From Hydrogenophaga crocea (GTDB taxonomy: Bacteria > Pseudomonadota > Gammaproteobacteria > Burkholderiales > Burkholderiaceae_C): a stretch of 64,000 bases of DNA. The DNA is taken from NCBI RefSeq assembly GCF_011388215.1, contig NZ_CP049989.1:3906001-3970000 (forward strand), in the 5' to 3' direction. Numbering within the stretch: position 1 is the stretch's first letter; the number at the start of each line of letters is the position of its first letter. The position numbers and the translations under genes were made by a program. Below are positions 16,742 through 46,602 of the stretch, piece after piece. The notes beneath the pieces were generated by a model, which was given only the letters and a program-made list of their open reading frames with translations, was not told where the DNA came from and searched no databases.

Positions 16742-17362
16742 ATGTACCGCCGCGATTTCACCCTTTCCCTGCTGGCCAGCGGGGCTGCGCTGCCCGCCTT
16801 CGCCCAGCGCGTCGCCCCGCGCGAGGGCACCGAGTACCAGCGCCTGCCCAAGCCGGCGCCGGTCGACACGCCCGCCGGCAAGATCGAGGTGGTGGAGTTC
16901 TTCGCCTACTCCTGCGTGCACTGCTTCAACTTCGAGCCGCTGCTCGAAGACTGGGAGAAGCGCCTGCCCGCCGACGTGGTGCTGCGCCGCACGCCCGTGG
17001 CCTTCTCGCCGGCCTTCGTGCCCATGCAGAAGCTGTACTACACGCTCGAATCCATGGGTCTGGTGGGCCGCCTGCACGCCGCGGTGTTCAAGGCCATCCA
17101 CGTCGATCGCCTGCCCCTGACCACCGACGGCCCCATCACCGACTGGGTGGTGCGCCAGGGCGTGGACCGCGCCAAGTTCACCGAGGCCTTCAACAGCGGC
17201 GCCGTGATGACCAAGGCCTCGCGCGCTGCCGCCCTGCAGGACGCCTATGCCGTCGAAGGCACGCCCGCGCTGGGCGTGGCGGGCCGCTTCACCGTGCCCG
17301 GCCAGGGCCCCAACACGCTGGTGGTCGCCAACGCGCTGATCGCCAACGTGCGCAAAGGCTGA
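16742..17362 (+). CDS. dsbA: Thiol:disulfide interchange protein DsbA/DsbL
   Basis: A periplasmic disulfide oxidase of 206 residues. The active site C58-V-H-C61 lies in FFAYSCVHCFNFEP, and the cis-proline loop is VEGTPALGV. The signal peptide runs to about Ala21 (PAFA before Gln22). It begins with the pair Arg3-Arg4 followed by Asp-Phe, a partial twin-arginine pattern, so Tat rather than Sec export cannot be excluded. The protein would accept electrons from folding envelope proteins, here perhaps including the LptD assembly pathway. It stands alone between the SPOR gene and lptA, 78 nt after the former. Confidence 0.93.
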   Translation: MYRRDFTLSLLASGAALPAFAQRVAPREGTEYQRLPKPAPVDTPAGKIEVVEFFAYSCVHCFNFEPLLEDWEKRLPADVVLRRTPVAFSPAFVPMQKLYYTLESMGLVGRLHAAVFKAIHVDRLPLTTDGPITDWVVRQGVDRAKFTEAFNSGAVMTKASRAAALQDAYAVEGTPALGVAGRFTVPGQGPNTLVVANALIANVRKG

Positions 17363-37489: not shown

Positions 37490-38098
37490 TCAGGGCTGCT
37501 TCTTGCCCACGCCCAGCAGCGCGTCCTTGAGCTGCCAGTCGGCCGGCTTGGGGCCGAGCCAGATGCGCAGCAGCGCATCGTAGAACTCGGGCTCCTTGAA
37601 GGGCTCGCCCTCGACCTGGCCGCGCACGGTGAGCACCGTGCCGGTGCCGGGCAGCCAGTCGACGGTGAAGGTGTCGCCCTTGTTGAGCTTCTTGTGGGCG
37701 GCAAAGATCTGGCTCATGCGCAGCACGCCCGGGATCAGCTTGGAAAACGCCGCGCGGTCCATGTTGTCCTCGATGCCGCGCGAGAACAGCTTGCCGAGCT
37801 CGGTGGCGTCGATGTCGCGCAGCATGGTGATGGTGATGCGCTTGGGCCCGGCCGTGCCCAGCACGCCCTCGGTCGTGGTGGCCTTGGCCGTCAGGTAGAG
37901 CCCGGCCGTGTAGACCTGGAACACCGCCTTGTAGCGAACACCCGCGCCGTTGAGCACCAGCGGACTGCCGCCCACCGTGGCGCGATCCTGCAGCGTCACG
38001 CCGGCGAGCTCCACGGGGGCGGCCAGCGCGGGCAGGCTGGCGAGCAGCGCGCCGCCAAGGACCAGCGCGCGCAGCGGGGAGAGGGGGTTGGGCACCAT
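37490..38098 (-). CDS. Exported chalcone-isomerase-like protein
   Basis: The 202-residue protein has a signal peptide (LRALVLGGALLASLPALAA, cleaved after about residue 27) and a chalcone-isomerase-like body: ELAGVTLQDRATVGGSPLVLNG, YKAVFQVYTAGLYL, ITITMLRDIDATELGKLFSRG. Bacterial members of this fold are periplasmic and do not make flavonoids; many bind fatty acids. A dyad GAACG-GT-CGTTC lies 23 nt upstream of the ATG, the pattern of TetR-type operators. It is divergent from the trp leader. Confidence 0.88.
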   Translation of the reverse strand: MVPNPLSPLRALVLGGALLASLPALAAPVELAGVTLQDRATVGGSPLVLNGAGVRYKAVFQVYTAGLYLTAKATTTEGVLGTAGPKRITITMLRDIDATELGKLFSRGIEDNMDRAAFSKLIPGVLRMSQIFAAHKKLNKGDTFTVDWLPGTGTVLTVRGQVEGEPFKEPEFYDALLRIWLGPKPADWQLKDALLGVGKKQP

Positions 38099-38120
38099 GA
38101 TCGGATTCGCCTCCAGAAGT

Positions 38121-38132
38121 GAACGGTCGTTC
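38121..38132. promoter_or_regulatory. TetR-type palindrome upstream of chalcone-isomerase-like gene
   Basis: GAACG-GT-CGTTC is a perfect 5-bp dyad with a 2-nt centre, the form seen in operators of many TetR-family regulators of acyl-CoA or fatty-acid genes. It lies in the gap between the minus-strand gene start (38098) and the trp leader promoter. The cognate regulator is not in the window. Confidence 0.35.
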
Positions 38133-38231
38133 GATTTCCTGCATTGTCCCGGCGCCTTGCGGGCTTGACCAGCGGGTAAGGCCCGAGGCGCGCGCGGTGG
38201 TGAACGGGCTTATCGGCCTGTCGCGGTGCTT

Positions 38232-38240
38232 TGTTATAGT
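38232..38240 (+). promoter_or_regulatory. Extended -10 promoter of the trp operon
   Basis: TGTTATAGT combines the extended -10 TGn element with the hexamer TATAGT. No good -35 hexamer lies at the usual distance, which an extended -10 can tolerate. Transcription would start near 38246-38249, at or just before the leader-peptide ATG, so the leader mRNA would have little or no 5' UTR. Confidence 0.6.
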
Positions 38241-38248
38241 GCGCCACC

Positions 38249-38332
38249 ATGTTTCGTCCCTGCACGCTCACCCTCGGCTCGCAGCCGCGCCATTTCGGCG
38301 GGGGAGCCTGGCCCTGGCGCAAGCCAGCCTGA
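38249..38332 (+). CDS. trpL: Putative trp operon leader peptide (TrpL-like), 27 aa
   Basis: A 27-codon frame (ATG 38249 to TGA 38330-38332) encodes MFRPCTLTLG... and ends GGGAWPWRKPA with Trp21 and Trp23, two Trp codons at 38309-38311 and 38315-38317 separated by one Pro codon. This is the classic design of a trp attenuator leader, in which ribosome stalling at Trp codons selects between alternative RNA stems. It starts about 8 nt after an extended -10 element, so it may be leaderless like the Sinorhizobium trpL. It is followed by hairpins before trpE at 38486. It is too short for ordinary gene calling. Confidence 0.7.
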   Translation: MFRPCTLTLGSQPRHFGGGAWPWRKPA

Positions 38333-38475
38333 ACGTGCACACCTCCCCCCGCGGGGACCGGCCGGGCGCCTGAGCGCCGCGCTTCTCCGCAACGCCCCCC
38401 GGCAGCGCGCCTGCCGGACCGACAGGAACCCCCGGCCCACCCGCTGCGCGCAGCGCCTCCGTGGCCCCGGACGGA
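38314..38475 (+). promoter_or_regulatory. trpE attenuator/leader region with successive hairpins
   Basis: Within the 153 nt between the leader stop and trpE there are several strong stems. CTGGC-GCAA-GCCAG (38314-38327) covers the second Trp codon. GGCGC-CTGA-GCGCC (38365-38378) is followed by a short TTCT. CCGGCAG-cgcgc-CTGCCGG (38399-38417) and a 14-nt palindrome (38442-38455) come next. TCCGT/ACGGA (38458-38475) hides the GGA before trpE. The GGCGC over the Trp codon can also pair with GCGCC of the later stem, giving the mutual exclusion expected of an attenuator. No long U-run is seen, so termination may be rho-dependent or translational. Confidence 0.5.
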
Positions 38476-38485
38476 TGGAACGAAC

Positions 38486-39985
38486 ATGATCACCGAACTC
38501 GAATTCAAGAGCCTCACCCAGCAGGGCTACAACCGCATCCCGCTGATGCTCGAGGCCTTCGCCGACCTCGAAACCCCGCTCTCCCTGTACCTCAAGCTCG
38601 CGCACGGCCGCGGCGACGGCCGCCACAGCTTCCTGCTCGAATCGGTGGTGGGCGGCGAGCGCTTCGGCCGCTACAGCTTCATCGGCCTGCCCGCGCGCAC
38701 CCTGCTGCGCGCCAGCGGCTTCGGTGCCGACGCGAAGACCGAGGTGGTGCGCGACGGCGAGGTGGTGGAGACGAACCGCGGCAACCCGCTCGACTTCATC
38801 GCCGCCTACCAGCAGCGCTTCAAGGTGGCGCTGCGGCCCGGCCTGCCGCGCTTTTGCGGCGGCCTGGCGGGCTATTTCGGCTACGACGCGGTGCGCCACA
38901 TCGAGAAGAAGCTCGAGCACAGCTGCCCGCCCGACACCCTGGGCTGCCCCGACATCCTGCTGCTGCAGTGCGAGGAGCTCGCGGTCATCGACAACCTGTC
39001 GGGCAAGCTCTACCTCATCGTCTACGCCGACCCGGGCCAGCCCGAGGCCTACAGCAACGCCAAGAAGCGGCTGCGCGAGCTCAAGGAGTCGCTCAAGTAT
39101 TCGGTGAGCGCGCCGCAGGTGAAGGCCACGCAGGCGCACCCGGCCGAGCGCGGCTTTGCCAAGGCCGACTACCTGGCCGCGGTGGAGCGCGCCAAGGAGC
39201 TCATCGCCGCGGGCGACTTCATGCAGGTGCAGGTGGGTCAGCGCATCCAGAAGCGCTACACCGAGTCGCCGCTGTCGCTGTACCGCGCGCTGCGCTCGCT
39301 CAACCCCTCGCCCTACATGTACTACTACCACTTCGGCGACTTCCACGTGGTGGGGGCGAGCCCGGAGATCCTGGTGCGCCAGGAGCACACCGACGAGGGG
39401 CAGAAGGTGACGATACGGCCGCTCGCGGGCACGCGCCCGCGCGGCGCCACGCCCGAGAAAGACAAGGCCACCGAGGTCGAACTCGTCAACGACCCCAAGG
39501 AGCGCGCCGAGCACGTGATGCTGATCGACCTCGCGCGCAACGACATCGGCCGCATCGCGAAGACCGGCAGCGTGAAGGTGACCGAGGCCTTCGTGGTCGA
39601 GCGCTACAGCCACGTGATGCACATCGTGAGCAACGTCGAGGGCATCCTCAACGACGGCATGACCAACATGGACGTGCTCAAGGCCACCTTCCCCGCGGGC
39701 ACGCTCACGGGCGCGCCCAAGGTGCACGCCATGGAGCTCATCGACCGGCTCGAGCCGGTCAAGCGCGGCATCTACGGCGGCGCCTGCGGCTACCTGAGCT
39801 ACGCGGGCGACATGGACGTGGCGATCGCCATCCGCACCGCGATCGTGAAGGACCAGACGCTGTACGTGCAGGCCGCGGCCGGCGTGGTCGCCGACTCGGT
39901 GCCCGAGATGGAGTGGCGCGAAACGGAGCACAAGGCGCGCGCGCTGCTGCGCGCGGCCGAACTGGTCGAGGAGGGTCTGGAATGA
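38486..39985 (+). CDS. trpE: Anthranilate synthase component I
   Basis: TrpE makes anthranilate from chorismate with ammonia supplied by TrpG. The 499-residue protein carries LLES at residues 50-53, the feedback-inhibition motif for tryptophan binding. Its catalytic domain contains [39 protein letters not shown] and VSNVEG with the expected metal/chorismate residues. It is not fused to TrpG. The ATG is preceded by a weak GGATGG site partly hidden in a hairpin. It overlaps trpG by 4 nt (ATGA). Confidence 0.98.
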
Positions 39986-40575
39986 GCGCGATCAAGGTCC
40001 TGATGGTGGACAACTACGACTCGTTCACCTTCAACATCGTGCAGTACCTGGGCGAGCTCGGCGCCGAGGTGACCGTGCTGCGCAACGACGAGGTCACGGT
40101 CGATGAACTGCAGGCCCGGCTCGACGCCGGCCGCATGGATCGGCTGGTGATCTCGCCCGGCCCGTGCTCGCCGGCCGAGGCCGGCATCTCGGTGCCGGCC
40201 ATCCGCCACTTCGCGGGCAAGCTGCCCATCCTCGGCGTGTGCCTGGGCCACCAGAGCATCGGCGCGGCCTTCGGCGGCACCATCGTGCGCGCGCAGCAGC
40301 TCATGCACGGCAAGACCAGCGAGATCACCACCACGCAGCGCGGCGTGTTCGCGGGCCTGCCCGAGCGCTTCACCGTGAACCGCTACCACTCGCTCGCGAT
40401 CCGCCGCGCCGACTGCCCGGCCGAGCTCGAGGTGACGGCCTGGACCGACGACGGCGAGATCATGGGCGTGAAGCACAAGAGCCTGGCCATCGAAGGCGTG
40501 CAGTTCCACCCCGAGAGCATCCTCACCGAACACGGCCACGCCATGCTGCGCAACTTCCTGGAGCAGGTCGCATGA
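39982..40575 (+). CDS. trpG: Anthranilate synthase component II (glutamine amidotransferase)
   Basis: A 197-residue class I glutamine amidotransferase with the triad Cys87 in GVCLGHQS, His176 and Glu178 in VQFHPESIL. It supplies ammonia to TrpE; it may be shared with para-aminobenzoate synthase as in other bacteria lacking pabA. It overlaps trpE and ltaE by 4 nt at each end, so all three are translationally coupled. Confidence 0.97.
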
Positions 40576-41648
40576 ACACCGTCGACCTGCGCAGCGACAC
40601 CGTCACCCAGCCCACCGCCGCCATGCGCGAGGCCATGATGGCCGCGCCGCTGGGCGACGACGTGTTCGGCGACGACCCCTCGGTGAACGCGCTGCAGGAG
40701 CAGATCGCTGCGCTCACCGGCAAGGAGGCCGCGCTGTTCATGAGCAGCGGCACCCAGAGCAACCTCTGCGGCATGATGGCCCACTGCGGTCGCGGCGACG
40801 AATACATCGTGGGCCAGAACGCCCACACCTACCGCTACGAAGGCGGCGGCGCTGCGGTGCTGGGCAGCATCCAGCCGCAGCCGCTCGCGCAGGACGCGCA
40901 AGGCCTCATGAAGCCCGCCGATGTCGAGGCCGCGATCAAGCCCGACGACCCGCACTTCGCGCGCACGCGGCTGCTCTGCCTGGAGAACACCTGGAACGGG
41001 CACGTGATGCCCGAGGCCTACCTGCGCGAGATGACCGCGCTTGCGCGCCGACACGGCCTGACGGTGCACCTGGACGGCGCGCGCGTGTTCAACGCGGCCG
41101 TGCACAACGCAGGCCCGGGCGGTGACCCGTTCGCGGCGCTGCGCGCCATCACCGACCTGTTCGACAGCGTGTCCGTGTGTTTCAGCAAGGGCCTGGGCGC
41201 GCCCGTGGGCTCGGCGCTGTGCGGCCCGCGCGAATTCATCGAGCGCGCGCGCCGCTGGCGCAAGATGGTGGGTGGCGGCCTGCGCCAGGCCGGCCTGCTC
41301 GCGGCCGCGGCCTCGCACGCGCTCGACCACCACGTGCACCGTCTGGCCGACGACCACGCGCTCGCGCAGCGCCTGGCGCACGGCCTGGCGGGCATCGACG
41401 GCCTGAGCGTGCGCTCGGCGCAGACCAACATCGTGTTCGTCGACGTGGCCGGCGGCCGCGGCCCCGACCTGCTCGCGCACCTGCAGCGCGACGGCGTGCT
41501 CGCCACCGGCCTGATCGGTGTGCGCTTCGTGACCCACCTGGGCGTGGACGCGCCCGGCATCGACCGCGCCATCGCGAGCGCGCGCGCGTTCTTCGACCAG
41601 GCCGAGCCCCAAGGCGCCGCGCAGGCGCGCGGCCCCGCCGTCTACTGA
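40572..41648 (+). CDS. ltaE: Low-specificity L-threonine aldolase
   Basis: A 358-residue PLP enzyme that cleaves threonine or allo-threonine to glycine and acetaldehyde. [12 protein letters not shown] at the N-terminus and [10 protein letters not shown] (167-176) are family signatures; the PLP lysine is Lys206 in [13 protein letters not shown]. It overlaps trpG by 4 nt, placing it inside the trp operon between trpG and trpD. Its link to tryptophan synthesis is unclear; glycine or serine supply is a possible reason. Confidence 0.95.
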
Positions 41649-41661
41649 GCCGGAGCGCGCC

Positions 41662-42318
41662 ATGCCCGAACTGCCGCAACTGCTCCTGTTCATCGCGGCC
41701 GGCTGGCTGCTCAACCTCACGCCCGGGCCCGATGTGCTCTACATCGTGAGCCACGGCCTGCGCAGCGGTGCGCGCGCGGGCACTGCGGCCGCGCTGGGCA
41801 TCGTGGCCGGCTGCTTCGTGCACGTGTTCGCCGCCGCCGCGGGCCTGAGCGCGCTGCTCGCCACCTCGGCCACCGCGTTCACCCTGGTGAAGTGGGTCGG
41901 CGCCGCCTACCTGCTGTGGATGGGTGTGAAGTTGCTGTTCTCGCGCGGTGGACGGCTCGACCTGGGCGCTGCCGCTGCGCCCGAGGCCACCGCGCGCCTC
42001 GACCTCTGGGCCATCTGGCGCCGCGGCTTCCTCACCAACGTGCTCAATCCCAAGGTGGCGCTGTTCTTCCTGGCCTTCGTGCCGCAGTTCATCCGGCCCG
42101 ACGCCGCACACCCCGCGCTCGCCTTTCTGTGGCTCGGCGTGCTGTTCAACCTGAATTCGTTGCCGATCAACCTCGGCTACGCCTGGCTCGCGGCCTGGGC
42201 CGCGCGGCGCGTGCACGCGTTGCAGCGCGCCATGGGTTGGATGGACCGCGCCGCCGGTCTGATGTTCATCGGCTTCGGCCTGCGCCTGGCGCTCGCCGAT
42301 CACCCCACGAAACCTTGA
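41662..42318 (+). CDS. LysE-family amino-acid exporter
   Basis: The 218-residue membrane protein starts [20 protein letters not shown] and has the RhtB/LysE hallmark [20 protein letters not shown] near residues 18-37, then [18 protein letters not shown] and [21 protein letters not shown] segments. Six hydrophobic stretches are seen. GGAG precedes the ATG by 7 nt. It lies between ltaE and trpD in the trp operon and may export threonine, homoserine or aromatic amino acids; the substrate is not known. A separate ArgO-type LysE member is encoded at 12569-13195. Confidence 0.9.
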
Positions 42319-46526: not shown

Positions 46527-46602
46527 AGGGGTATAGCTCAATTGGCAGAGCGTCGGTCTCCAAAACCGAAGGTTGGGGGTTCGATTCCCTCTGCCCCTGC
46601 CA
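46527..46602 (+). tRNA. tRNA-Trp (anticodon CCA)
   Basis: A 76-nt cloverleaf: acceptor AGGGGTA/TGCCCCT, anticodon loop CTCCAAA with CCA at 46560-46562, T-loop GGGGGTTCGATTCCCTC, encoded CCA. It lies 30 nt after tuf. Its proximity to secE-nusG matches the betaproteobacterial arrangement. Confidence 0.97.

Follow-up and report, generated by a model that had tools for sequence, protein, structure and literature searches.

A putative leaderless trp attenuator upstream of trpE in Hydrogenophaga crocea and its relatives

Introduction

The trp operon of Escherichia coli starts with trpL, a leader peptide gene with neighbouring Trp codons that has both a Shine-Dalgarno (SD) sequence and a U-run terminator. 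A short trp leader open reading frame (ORF) also stands before trpE in trpLE(G) of Sinorhizobium meliloti, where, according to the accessible part of PMC7298713, the transcript is leaderless and trpE is attenuated. Here, we analyzed a 64 kb stretch of the 4.56 Mb genome of Hydrogenophaga crocea (the whole stretch is called the window, and positions refer to it), in which a short ORF with neighbouring Trp codons lies directly upstream of trpE. This ORF resembles E. coli trpL in its Trp codons and in its place at the start of the same operon, and it resembles the S. meliloti leader in its predicted leaderless transcript. We consider it likely that this element attenuates trpE by ribosome sensing on a leaderless transcript.

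The overall arrangement is similar to that of the S. meliloti leader but not identical. S. meliloti belongs to the alpha lineage, whereas the window is of the beta type. In the accessible part of PMC7298713, the Trp codons of S. meliloti are consecutive and a transcription terminator is depicted; in contrast, the window reads W-P-W, its family reads W-P-W, W-L-W or W-S-W with no run of consecutive Trp codons, and the window lacks a U-run. Trp-dependent attenuation by a leader ORF is also reported for Actinobacteria, with Corynebacterium and Streptomyces named in the part of PMC4833913 that was available; this lineage is distant from the window, and the likeness is one of description only. PMC5343134 reports that, within the classes it covered, only gammaproteobacteria have the TrpR repressor. 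An attenuator web database cited in the accessible part of PMC1173090 may list further cases. In the literature searched, which consisted largely of freely available papers, we found no trp leader described for this order. The initial annotation of the window had likewise known of no case in the lineage, and a leaderless trp attenuator is apparently undescribed there so far.

The leader frame and its promoter

The leader ORF has 27 codons, encodes MFRPCTLTLGSQPRHFGGGAWPWRKPA followed by a stop, and occupies positions 38249-38332 of the plus strand. It is presumed to be leaderless, as the extended -10 element TGTTATAGT (38232-38240, plus strand; hexamer TATAGT) ends 8 nt before ATG 38249. Two TGG codons stand near its end, namely Trp codon 1 (W1; codon 21 of 27; 38309-38311, plus strand) and Trp codon 2 (W2; codon 23 of 27; 38315-38317, plus strand). 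The initial annotation had placed the promoter about 8 nt before the leader ATG, and its coordinates for the promoter, the frame and both TGG codons proved exact. From the leader stop to trpE runs a C-rich untranslated leader RNA of 153 nt (72 C, 49 G; 38333-38485, plus strand). The trpE gene itself (38486-39985, plus strand) encodes anthranilate synthase component I (TIGR00564, PF00425, PF04715) and scored 535.1 bits against the NCBIfam equivalog TIGR00564, for which the cut-off is 517.7. No Pfam or NCBIfam match was obtained for the leader ORF. Upon examination of both strands of the window, the leader frame was found to be the sole ATG frame of 10-50 codons located 5-11 nt after TGnTAnnnT (1/1). 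Frames with two nearby Trp codons were not rare, amounting to 15/172 short ATG frames on one strand and 11/293 on the other when nested starts were counted apart.

The nearest named relatives of the window are Hydrogenophaga, with TrpE identity of up to 97%. In the following, f-numbers are family labels, f1 being the window's family, and L- and G-numbers denote loci and genomes, L001 being the window's leader. A TrpE search of 299 f1 genomes, including the window's own, gave 286 matches, and 130 trpE upstream regions (30 + 100 loci) representing the more similar part of f1 were examined. A W-x-W-R leader behind a -10-like site was found in 125 of the 130 regions; a stricter parse, which dropped L116 too, retained 124. 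Among 80 named relatives, 79 had the leader, Hydrogenophaga pseudoflava being one of them; the exception was L251, which is truncated by a contig edge. The frame is thus not a chance ORF, since it is conserved across the family.

Both parses require TGG-N3-TGG, so a fair count of Trp codon conservation must come from the loci that they missed. By eye, L086 was found to read W-P-C; in L123, additional sequence separated the promoter from the leader, which read W-P-W-C. Together with the 125 parsed leaders, these give 127 recognizable leaders; W1 was kept in all 127 and both TGG codons in 126, W2 being replaced by a Cys codon in L086. Conservation of the Trp codons among relatives, which had been proposed as a check on the attenuator, is therefore borne out. 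In L073, trpE directly followed an upstream coding region and no leader was seen by eye. L111 and L122 also lacked a leader by eye, yet the TTTGCTACACTT promoter was retained within ~50 nt of trpE; these two loci represent natural leader losses with the extended -10 promoter kept and may be useful as natural controls.

Across the 124 leaders, the consensus of the extended -10 element was TTTGCTACACT, and the -35 region was uninformative. The hexamer was TACACT in 108 leaders and related in 16, its spacing to the start codon was 6-9 nt in 119, and the start codon was ATG in 123 and GTG in one. An SD core of at least 4 nt preceded just one of the 124 leaders, compared with 83 of the 124 trpE starts; the SD core of the window's trpE has 3 nt only. 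As in leaderless trpL, the leader is thus not preceded by an SD sequence. The spacing and the lack of an SD sequence fit the earlier prediction that the transcript would begin at or next to the leader ATG. Taken together, the presence of a presumably leaderless Trp leader before trpE is strongly supported, because the Trp codons are kept, the promoter-to-ATG spacing is steady, no SD sequence is present, conservation is deep, and two genomes have lost the leader as a unit.

The residues around the Trp codons were also highly constrained. The residue preceding W1 was Ala in 124/124 leaders with a variable wobble position (GCC 100, GCT 16, GCA 6, GCG 2), and the residue after W2 was Arg in 124/124, which is partly forced by the parse. 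The codon between the two Trp codons encoded Pro in 115 leaders, Leu in eight and Ser in one, and the two codons ahead of Ala were nearly fixed at silent positions (CGG 115, GGA 114). The constant Ala and Arg would suit a nascent-peptide sensor similar to TnaC, in which R-G-A-W-P-W-R arrests the ribosome on free Trp rather than on uncharged tRNA. We give this reading very little credence: the middle residue varies, other families end in W-R-W-R or W-L-W-R in different contexts, and CGG GGA ... CCC UGG hardly varies even at its silent sites, which a CCGGGG-loop-CCCUGG hairpin would demand. Moreover, ribosome arrest at high Trp would regulate a biosynthetic gene in the wrong direction, barring a different coupling.

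Trp leaders in other families of the order

To describe the distribution of such leaders, we sampled 150 genomes of the order. TrpE was present in 138, of which four were f1, and 66 of the other 134 were examined, chosen for family spread. An ATG frame of 6-45 codons was counted if its final 20 residues included two Trp at most two residues apart and if it ended no more than 400 nt from trpE. Such frames were found in 42 of the 66 trpE upstream regions, compared with two on the reverse strand and 2.5 +/- 1.7 in shuffles; 28/42 families were represented in this survey. Some of the 42 frames (L164, L169, L170, L180, L212, L217) are likely chance frames inside upstream genes and were counted nonetheless. 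Leaders of f4, f5, f8, f22, f32, f33 and others resemble the window's in having neighbouring Trp codons ahead of trpE, with W-R-W-R, W-R-W-W and W-L-W-R-R-W as typical C-terminal ends. As in f1, an SD sequence was absent from 30/30 f32 leaders and from 23/23 parsed f8 leaders. By eye, a hairpin with a U-run was seen in the f4 members L166, L168 and L174 and in L160. Given these ordinary U-run terminators in some other families, transcription attenuation looks like the ancestral state of these leaders.

Genome searches were performed with R1, a model of the f1 leader. In the window's own genome, a further leader copy appears unlikely, the next-best R1 match having an E-value of 0.036 against 5.6e-9 for the leader itself. 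R1 matched 78 of 120 f32 genomes, and a pattern derived from f8 leaders matched 62 of 116 f8 genomes. Outside f1, R1 matched 9 of 399 genomes of the order at E <= 0.01. Three f32 and three f3 rows among these nine matches showed a G-A-W-P-W-R leader; trpE was located behind the matched leader in G415, G349 and G432, and was identified by eye in the remaining f3 row. The matches in f40, f10 and f25 did not resemble trp leaders and were rejected. In a phylum sample, R1 matched 9 of 299 genomes at E <= 0.001, eight of them f1 and one f32.

A known RNA family was rejected at Rfam thresholds. The Trp_leader family RF00513 was absent from the window and exceeded its gathering cut-off in 0/150 genomes of the order, and no Rfam family matched in 20 relatives. 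In 14 control genomes, RF00513 matched three, E. coli included, and passed the cut-off in one. Sub-threshold matches to RF00513 (E <= 0.1) were obtained in 107 of the 150 genomes, including the window's own.

If the attenuator reading is correct, leader-peptide Trp attenuation would be widespread in the order and leaderless where checked, with no earlier description found in the literature searched. It would also account for Trp-responsive control of trpE in many species, both environmental and host-associated, for which such control had been missing.

Two further observations were made on these leaders. The f22 leaders (L175, L176, L183) are ultra-compact, with ~15 codons ending in W-R-W-R and with trpE beginning ~50 nt past the leader stop; by eye, their Trp codons apparently lie in the 5' arm of a hairpin that is followed by GUUUUUC (GUUUAUUC in L183). 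In one f8 genome, two matches to the leader pattern lie 235 nt apart on the minus strand (G1172:C25:16829-16852 and 17064-17087), perhaps forming a tandem leader.

Local hairpins and predicted long-range pairing of the leader RNA

To describe the folding of the leader, five sub-regions of the window were compared with shuffles. The sub-region with the hairpin CCGGCAGCGCGCCTGCCGG (38399-38417, plus strand) alone stood out, with a z-score of -2.07, and the other sub-regions ranged from -0.78 to 0.84. On visual inspection, many Hydrogenophaga-type leaders showed a hairpin resembling CCGGCAG..CTGACCGG. A second hairpin, CTGGCGCAAGCCAG (38314-38327, plus strand), covers W2 in the fold, and its sequence was nearly invariant in 28 Hydrogenophaga-type leaders. 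Additionally, GGCGGGGGAG (38297-38306, plus strand), just before W1, may pair with CTCCCCCCGC (38343-38352, plus strand), 11 nt past the leader stop. This candidate pairing was seen in the local fold of 38300-38360, which itself did not beat shuffles (z 0.84); the C-rich stretch around 38343-38352 was kept, by eye, in most Hydrogenophaga-type leaders.

The fold of the window's leader also contained a candidate long-range helix, here called P1, between its 5' end and a downstream segment. Its 5' strand is GTTTCGTCC (38251-38259, plus strand) and its 3' strand is GGATGGAAC (38473-38481, plus strand), which overlaps the ribosome-binding region of trpE; the duplex had an energy of -12.9 kcal/mol. 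Within Hydrogenophaga, the swap test described below gave a z-score of 1.4 for this pairing (31 sequences), which is not significant, so that P1 is only a candidate in the window and is not established in its genus.

Support was stronger elsewhere in f1. The leader's first nucleotides fold onto a motif ahead of trpE, and GAATGAA was the most frequent 7-mer downstream of the Trp codons (46/124). In the swap test, the 5' strand was paired with its own downstream region and with regions of species that have a different 5' strand; the resulting z-scores ignore relatedness. For f1 without Hydrogenophaga (163 distinct sequences), nucleotides 1-13 paired with positions -80 to -40 at -8.43 kcal/mol for own regions and -7.10 kcal/mol for others. 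The mean percentile was 0.649 with a z-score of 6.6, the highest among the six target windows tried; the others gave 0.1-5.2, the last 30 nt before trpE gave 0.7, and control segments gave 1.4 and -0.1. The best partner in f1 members outside the window's genus lay mostly ~40-80 nt before trpE. An earlier swap test on 40 non-consensus 5' strands gave a mean percentile of 0.68, with 29/40 above 0.5 and a z-score of 4.0 (controls -0.7 to 1.5).

An alignment of 39 sequences (A2) was consistent with this helix. The Trp-codon hairpin CCGGGG-loop-CCCUGG was paired in 100% of cells, two further helices in 85.7% and 82.7%, and P1 in 83.8%, with two-sided changes at 2/9 of its pairs. For the four helices together, 88.1% of cells paired, which was reached by 1/500 shuffles, and slid versions paired at most 47.4%. 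The covariation score of 0.100 was reached by 6/500 shuffles (slid versions at most 0.048). The 14 double-change cells were matched by 0/500 shuffles and by one slid version; the seven pairs with a double change were not distinctive, as 38/500 shuffles and all six slid versions reached that number. RNAalifold with default settings recovered the Trp-codon hairpin from the 39 rows and did not recover P1, and its RIBOSUM variant closed P1 too when applied to 56 rows. P1 and the hairpins were conserved in relatives, and no family-wide alternative pairing was seen.

We also found P1-like pairing in f8 and f32. An exact downstream complement of at least 8 nt to leader nucleotides 1-32 was present in 23/30 f32 leaders (shuffled 2.7%, swapped 19%) and in 21/23 parsed f8 leaders (shuffled 2.8%, swapped 38%; 7/30 f8 loci were unparsed). 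For nucleotides 1-20 of the f1 leaders, it was present in 39/124 (shuffled 0.7%, swapped 9.8%). The 30 f32 loci were the best R1 hits, nine of them from one genus. When nucleotides 1-5 were excluded, a complement of at least 7 nt remained in 26 f32 and 21 f8 leaders, all of the U-rich tail type in f8. Compensatory types were CAAAAAACGG:CCGTTTTTTG, TAAAAAACGG:CCGTTTTTTA and AACAGAAAACGGA:TCCGTTTTCTGTT in f32, ACAACAAACGA:TCGTTTGTTGT in f8, and GTTCATTC:GAATGAAC, TGTTTATTC:GAATAAACA and TCTAAACA:TGTTTAGA in f1. The partner was not uniform: in 10/30 f32 leaders the complement was GCGTTTGC or ATGCGTTTGC, located immediately past the leader stop and not behind a hairpin, and in 8/21 f8 leaders the longest complement differed, for example ATGTTTCTC with GAGAAACAT. 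In seven f8 leaders (e.g. L346, L350; leader nucleotides 1-9), the longest complement was ATGTTTCTC or TGTTTCTC with GAGAAACA(T); this partner lies ~100 nt past the leader stop and perhaps represents a second 5'-end pairing nearer to trpE.

In 20 of the 21 f32 and f8 loci with a U-tailed hairpin, the leader start was complementary to the tail region over 6-13 nt, the 6-letter matches being weak. The mean U fraction of the P1 3' strand was 0.68 in f8, 0.52 in f32 and 0.18 in f1 (from 56/124 leaders). In view of this tail complementarity and of the low U content in f1, the P1-type pairing seems to outlast the loss of the U-run, and the f1 helix may be homologous to that of f8 and f32. Pairing of the first ~20-30 leader nucleotides with a downstream segment is thus supported for the relatives by sequence comparison. 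P1-type pairing does not appear in the accessible part of PMC7298713, and such a 5'-end fold-back of trp leaders is apparently undescribed, as we found no description of it. If it is kept while the U-run vanishes, the families would form a natural series on how attenuator output changes, since f8 and f32 often have a U-run and f1 is mostly without one.

These data would also be compatible with a structured RNA or a trans-acting small RNA such as rnTrpL of Sinorhizobium, with the Trp codons being of little weight for trpE in cis. P1 covariation, the nearly fixed silent sites and the kept hairpins all point to constraint at the RNA level, and in a terminated leader RNA P1 would join the 5' end to the 3' tail. 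Nevertheless, we regard this explanation as highly unlikely. The first TGG is invariant in the hairpin loop while the wobble of the Ala codon in the same loop varies, the feature common across the order is the tandem Trp codons, and a role in trans would be compatible with one in cis.

Proposed mechanism and output

In the attenuator that we favor, transcription would begin at or beside ATG 38249, and a ribosome would land on the bare 5' AUG and translate the leader. When charged tRNA-Trp is short, the ribosome would be expected to stall at both UGG codons, because both are conserved. This ribosome, perhaps together with a follower, would alter the folding of the downstream leader so that trpE is expressed. 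When Trp is plentiful, the ribosome would run off and expression would be shut down, most probably because transcription terminates prematurely.

Two results weigh against this attenuator. The whole leader of the window was not better folded than dinucleotide shuffles (z -0.16; 83/200 shuffles at least as good), and the competing GC-rich stems of the initial annotation, being no more stable than shuffles, were not supported by the window itself. Furthermore, the intrinsic terminator that precedes the structural gene in a trp attenuator was not found: no U-run terminator was present in the window region 37800-38700, and one was present between W1 and trpE in 12/124 f1 leaders, with 5.4 expected from shuffles. 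A classical U-run terminator was thus rejected as the general rule in f1, and the doubt about the output that had been raised earlier for want of an obvious U-run was justified. By a slightly different rule, a hairpin with a U-rich tail was found in 12/30 f32 and 9/23 parsed f8 leaders.

A classical U-run terminator would therefore not be possible in most of f1, and our first guess is Rho-aided termination in the C-rich stretch. C exceeded G after the leader stop in 116/124 leaders, within the leader ORF in 88/124 and upstream of the leader in 26/124. The C-rich stretch is compatible with Rho loading, although not specific for it, and is also structured. Premature termination without a U-run, probably aided by Rho, appears moderately probable as the output.

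The other output considered was translational, in which the leader 5' end or another segment would hide the trpE ribosome-binding site (RBS), leader-held ribosomes would free it, and no termination would occur. The window's 5' end can pair with the RBS through the P1 strands given above, modelled cover of the 5' end lifted the openness of the L001 SD region from 0.28 to 0.47-0.48, and most of f1 lacks a U-run terminator. A modelled stall at W1 alone, however, left L001 at 0.28 and changed SD openness by a mean of just +0.02 over 124 leaders (by more than 0.05 upwards in 24 and downwards in five), which argues against a general translational switch. The RBS pairing was, moreover, not significant within the genus, and the supported partner elsewhere in f1 lies further upstream than the last 30 nt. 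A stem hiding the trpE RBS, as initially annotated, thus fared poorly, since a modelled stalled ribosome barely altered access to the trpE start. SD sequestration as a general output received no support from the occlusion model, and we consider translational attenuation, whether as a mechanism or as the output, unlikely.

A variant of the favored attenuator would sense ribosome queueing, so that trpE is kept on by the queue and not by the stalled ribosome as such. The initial ~20-30 nt of the mRNA would serve both as ribosome landing site and as the 5' strand of P1, whose partner in many relatives is the tail behind the hairpin. A halt 16-17 codons from the AUG would leave space for exactly one follower, with its footprint over the P1 5' strand, and P1 would form solely when no follower is parked there. 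Selection would have maintained P1, and f1 would have lost the U-run that provides the 3' strand in relatives. The start-to-Trp distance was 16 codons in 85/124 f1 leaders and 16-17 codons in f8 and f32, compared with 20 in the window. For the named relatives, of which 79 were parsed, the distance was 16 codons in 30, 20 in 33 and 24 in 16. The window's spacing and the ten f32 partners right after the leader stop weigh against queueing, which we consider quite unlikely. The pairing between 5' end and tail would nonetheless provide a testable model for ribosome queueing on leaderless mRNA.

Neighbouring genes

Downstream of trpE, the window contains a trpG-type glutamine amidotransferase gene (39986-40575, plus strand, start approximate; PF00117, 1.1e-59), followed by two unrelated genes and by genes with trpD and trpC domains. 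The two genes between trpEG and the trpD/trpC-type genes (40578-42315) are a PF01212 lyase-type gene, which we take to be threonine-aldolase-like, and a LysE-type translocator gene (PF01810). A chalcone-isomerase-like gene (PF16036; 37490-38098, minus strand) runs divergently upstream of the trp promoter. A tRNA-Trp(CCA) gene was found on the same strand as trpE ~8 kb downstream (46527-46602), near the genes for tRNA-Tyr, -Gly and -Thr.
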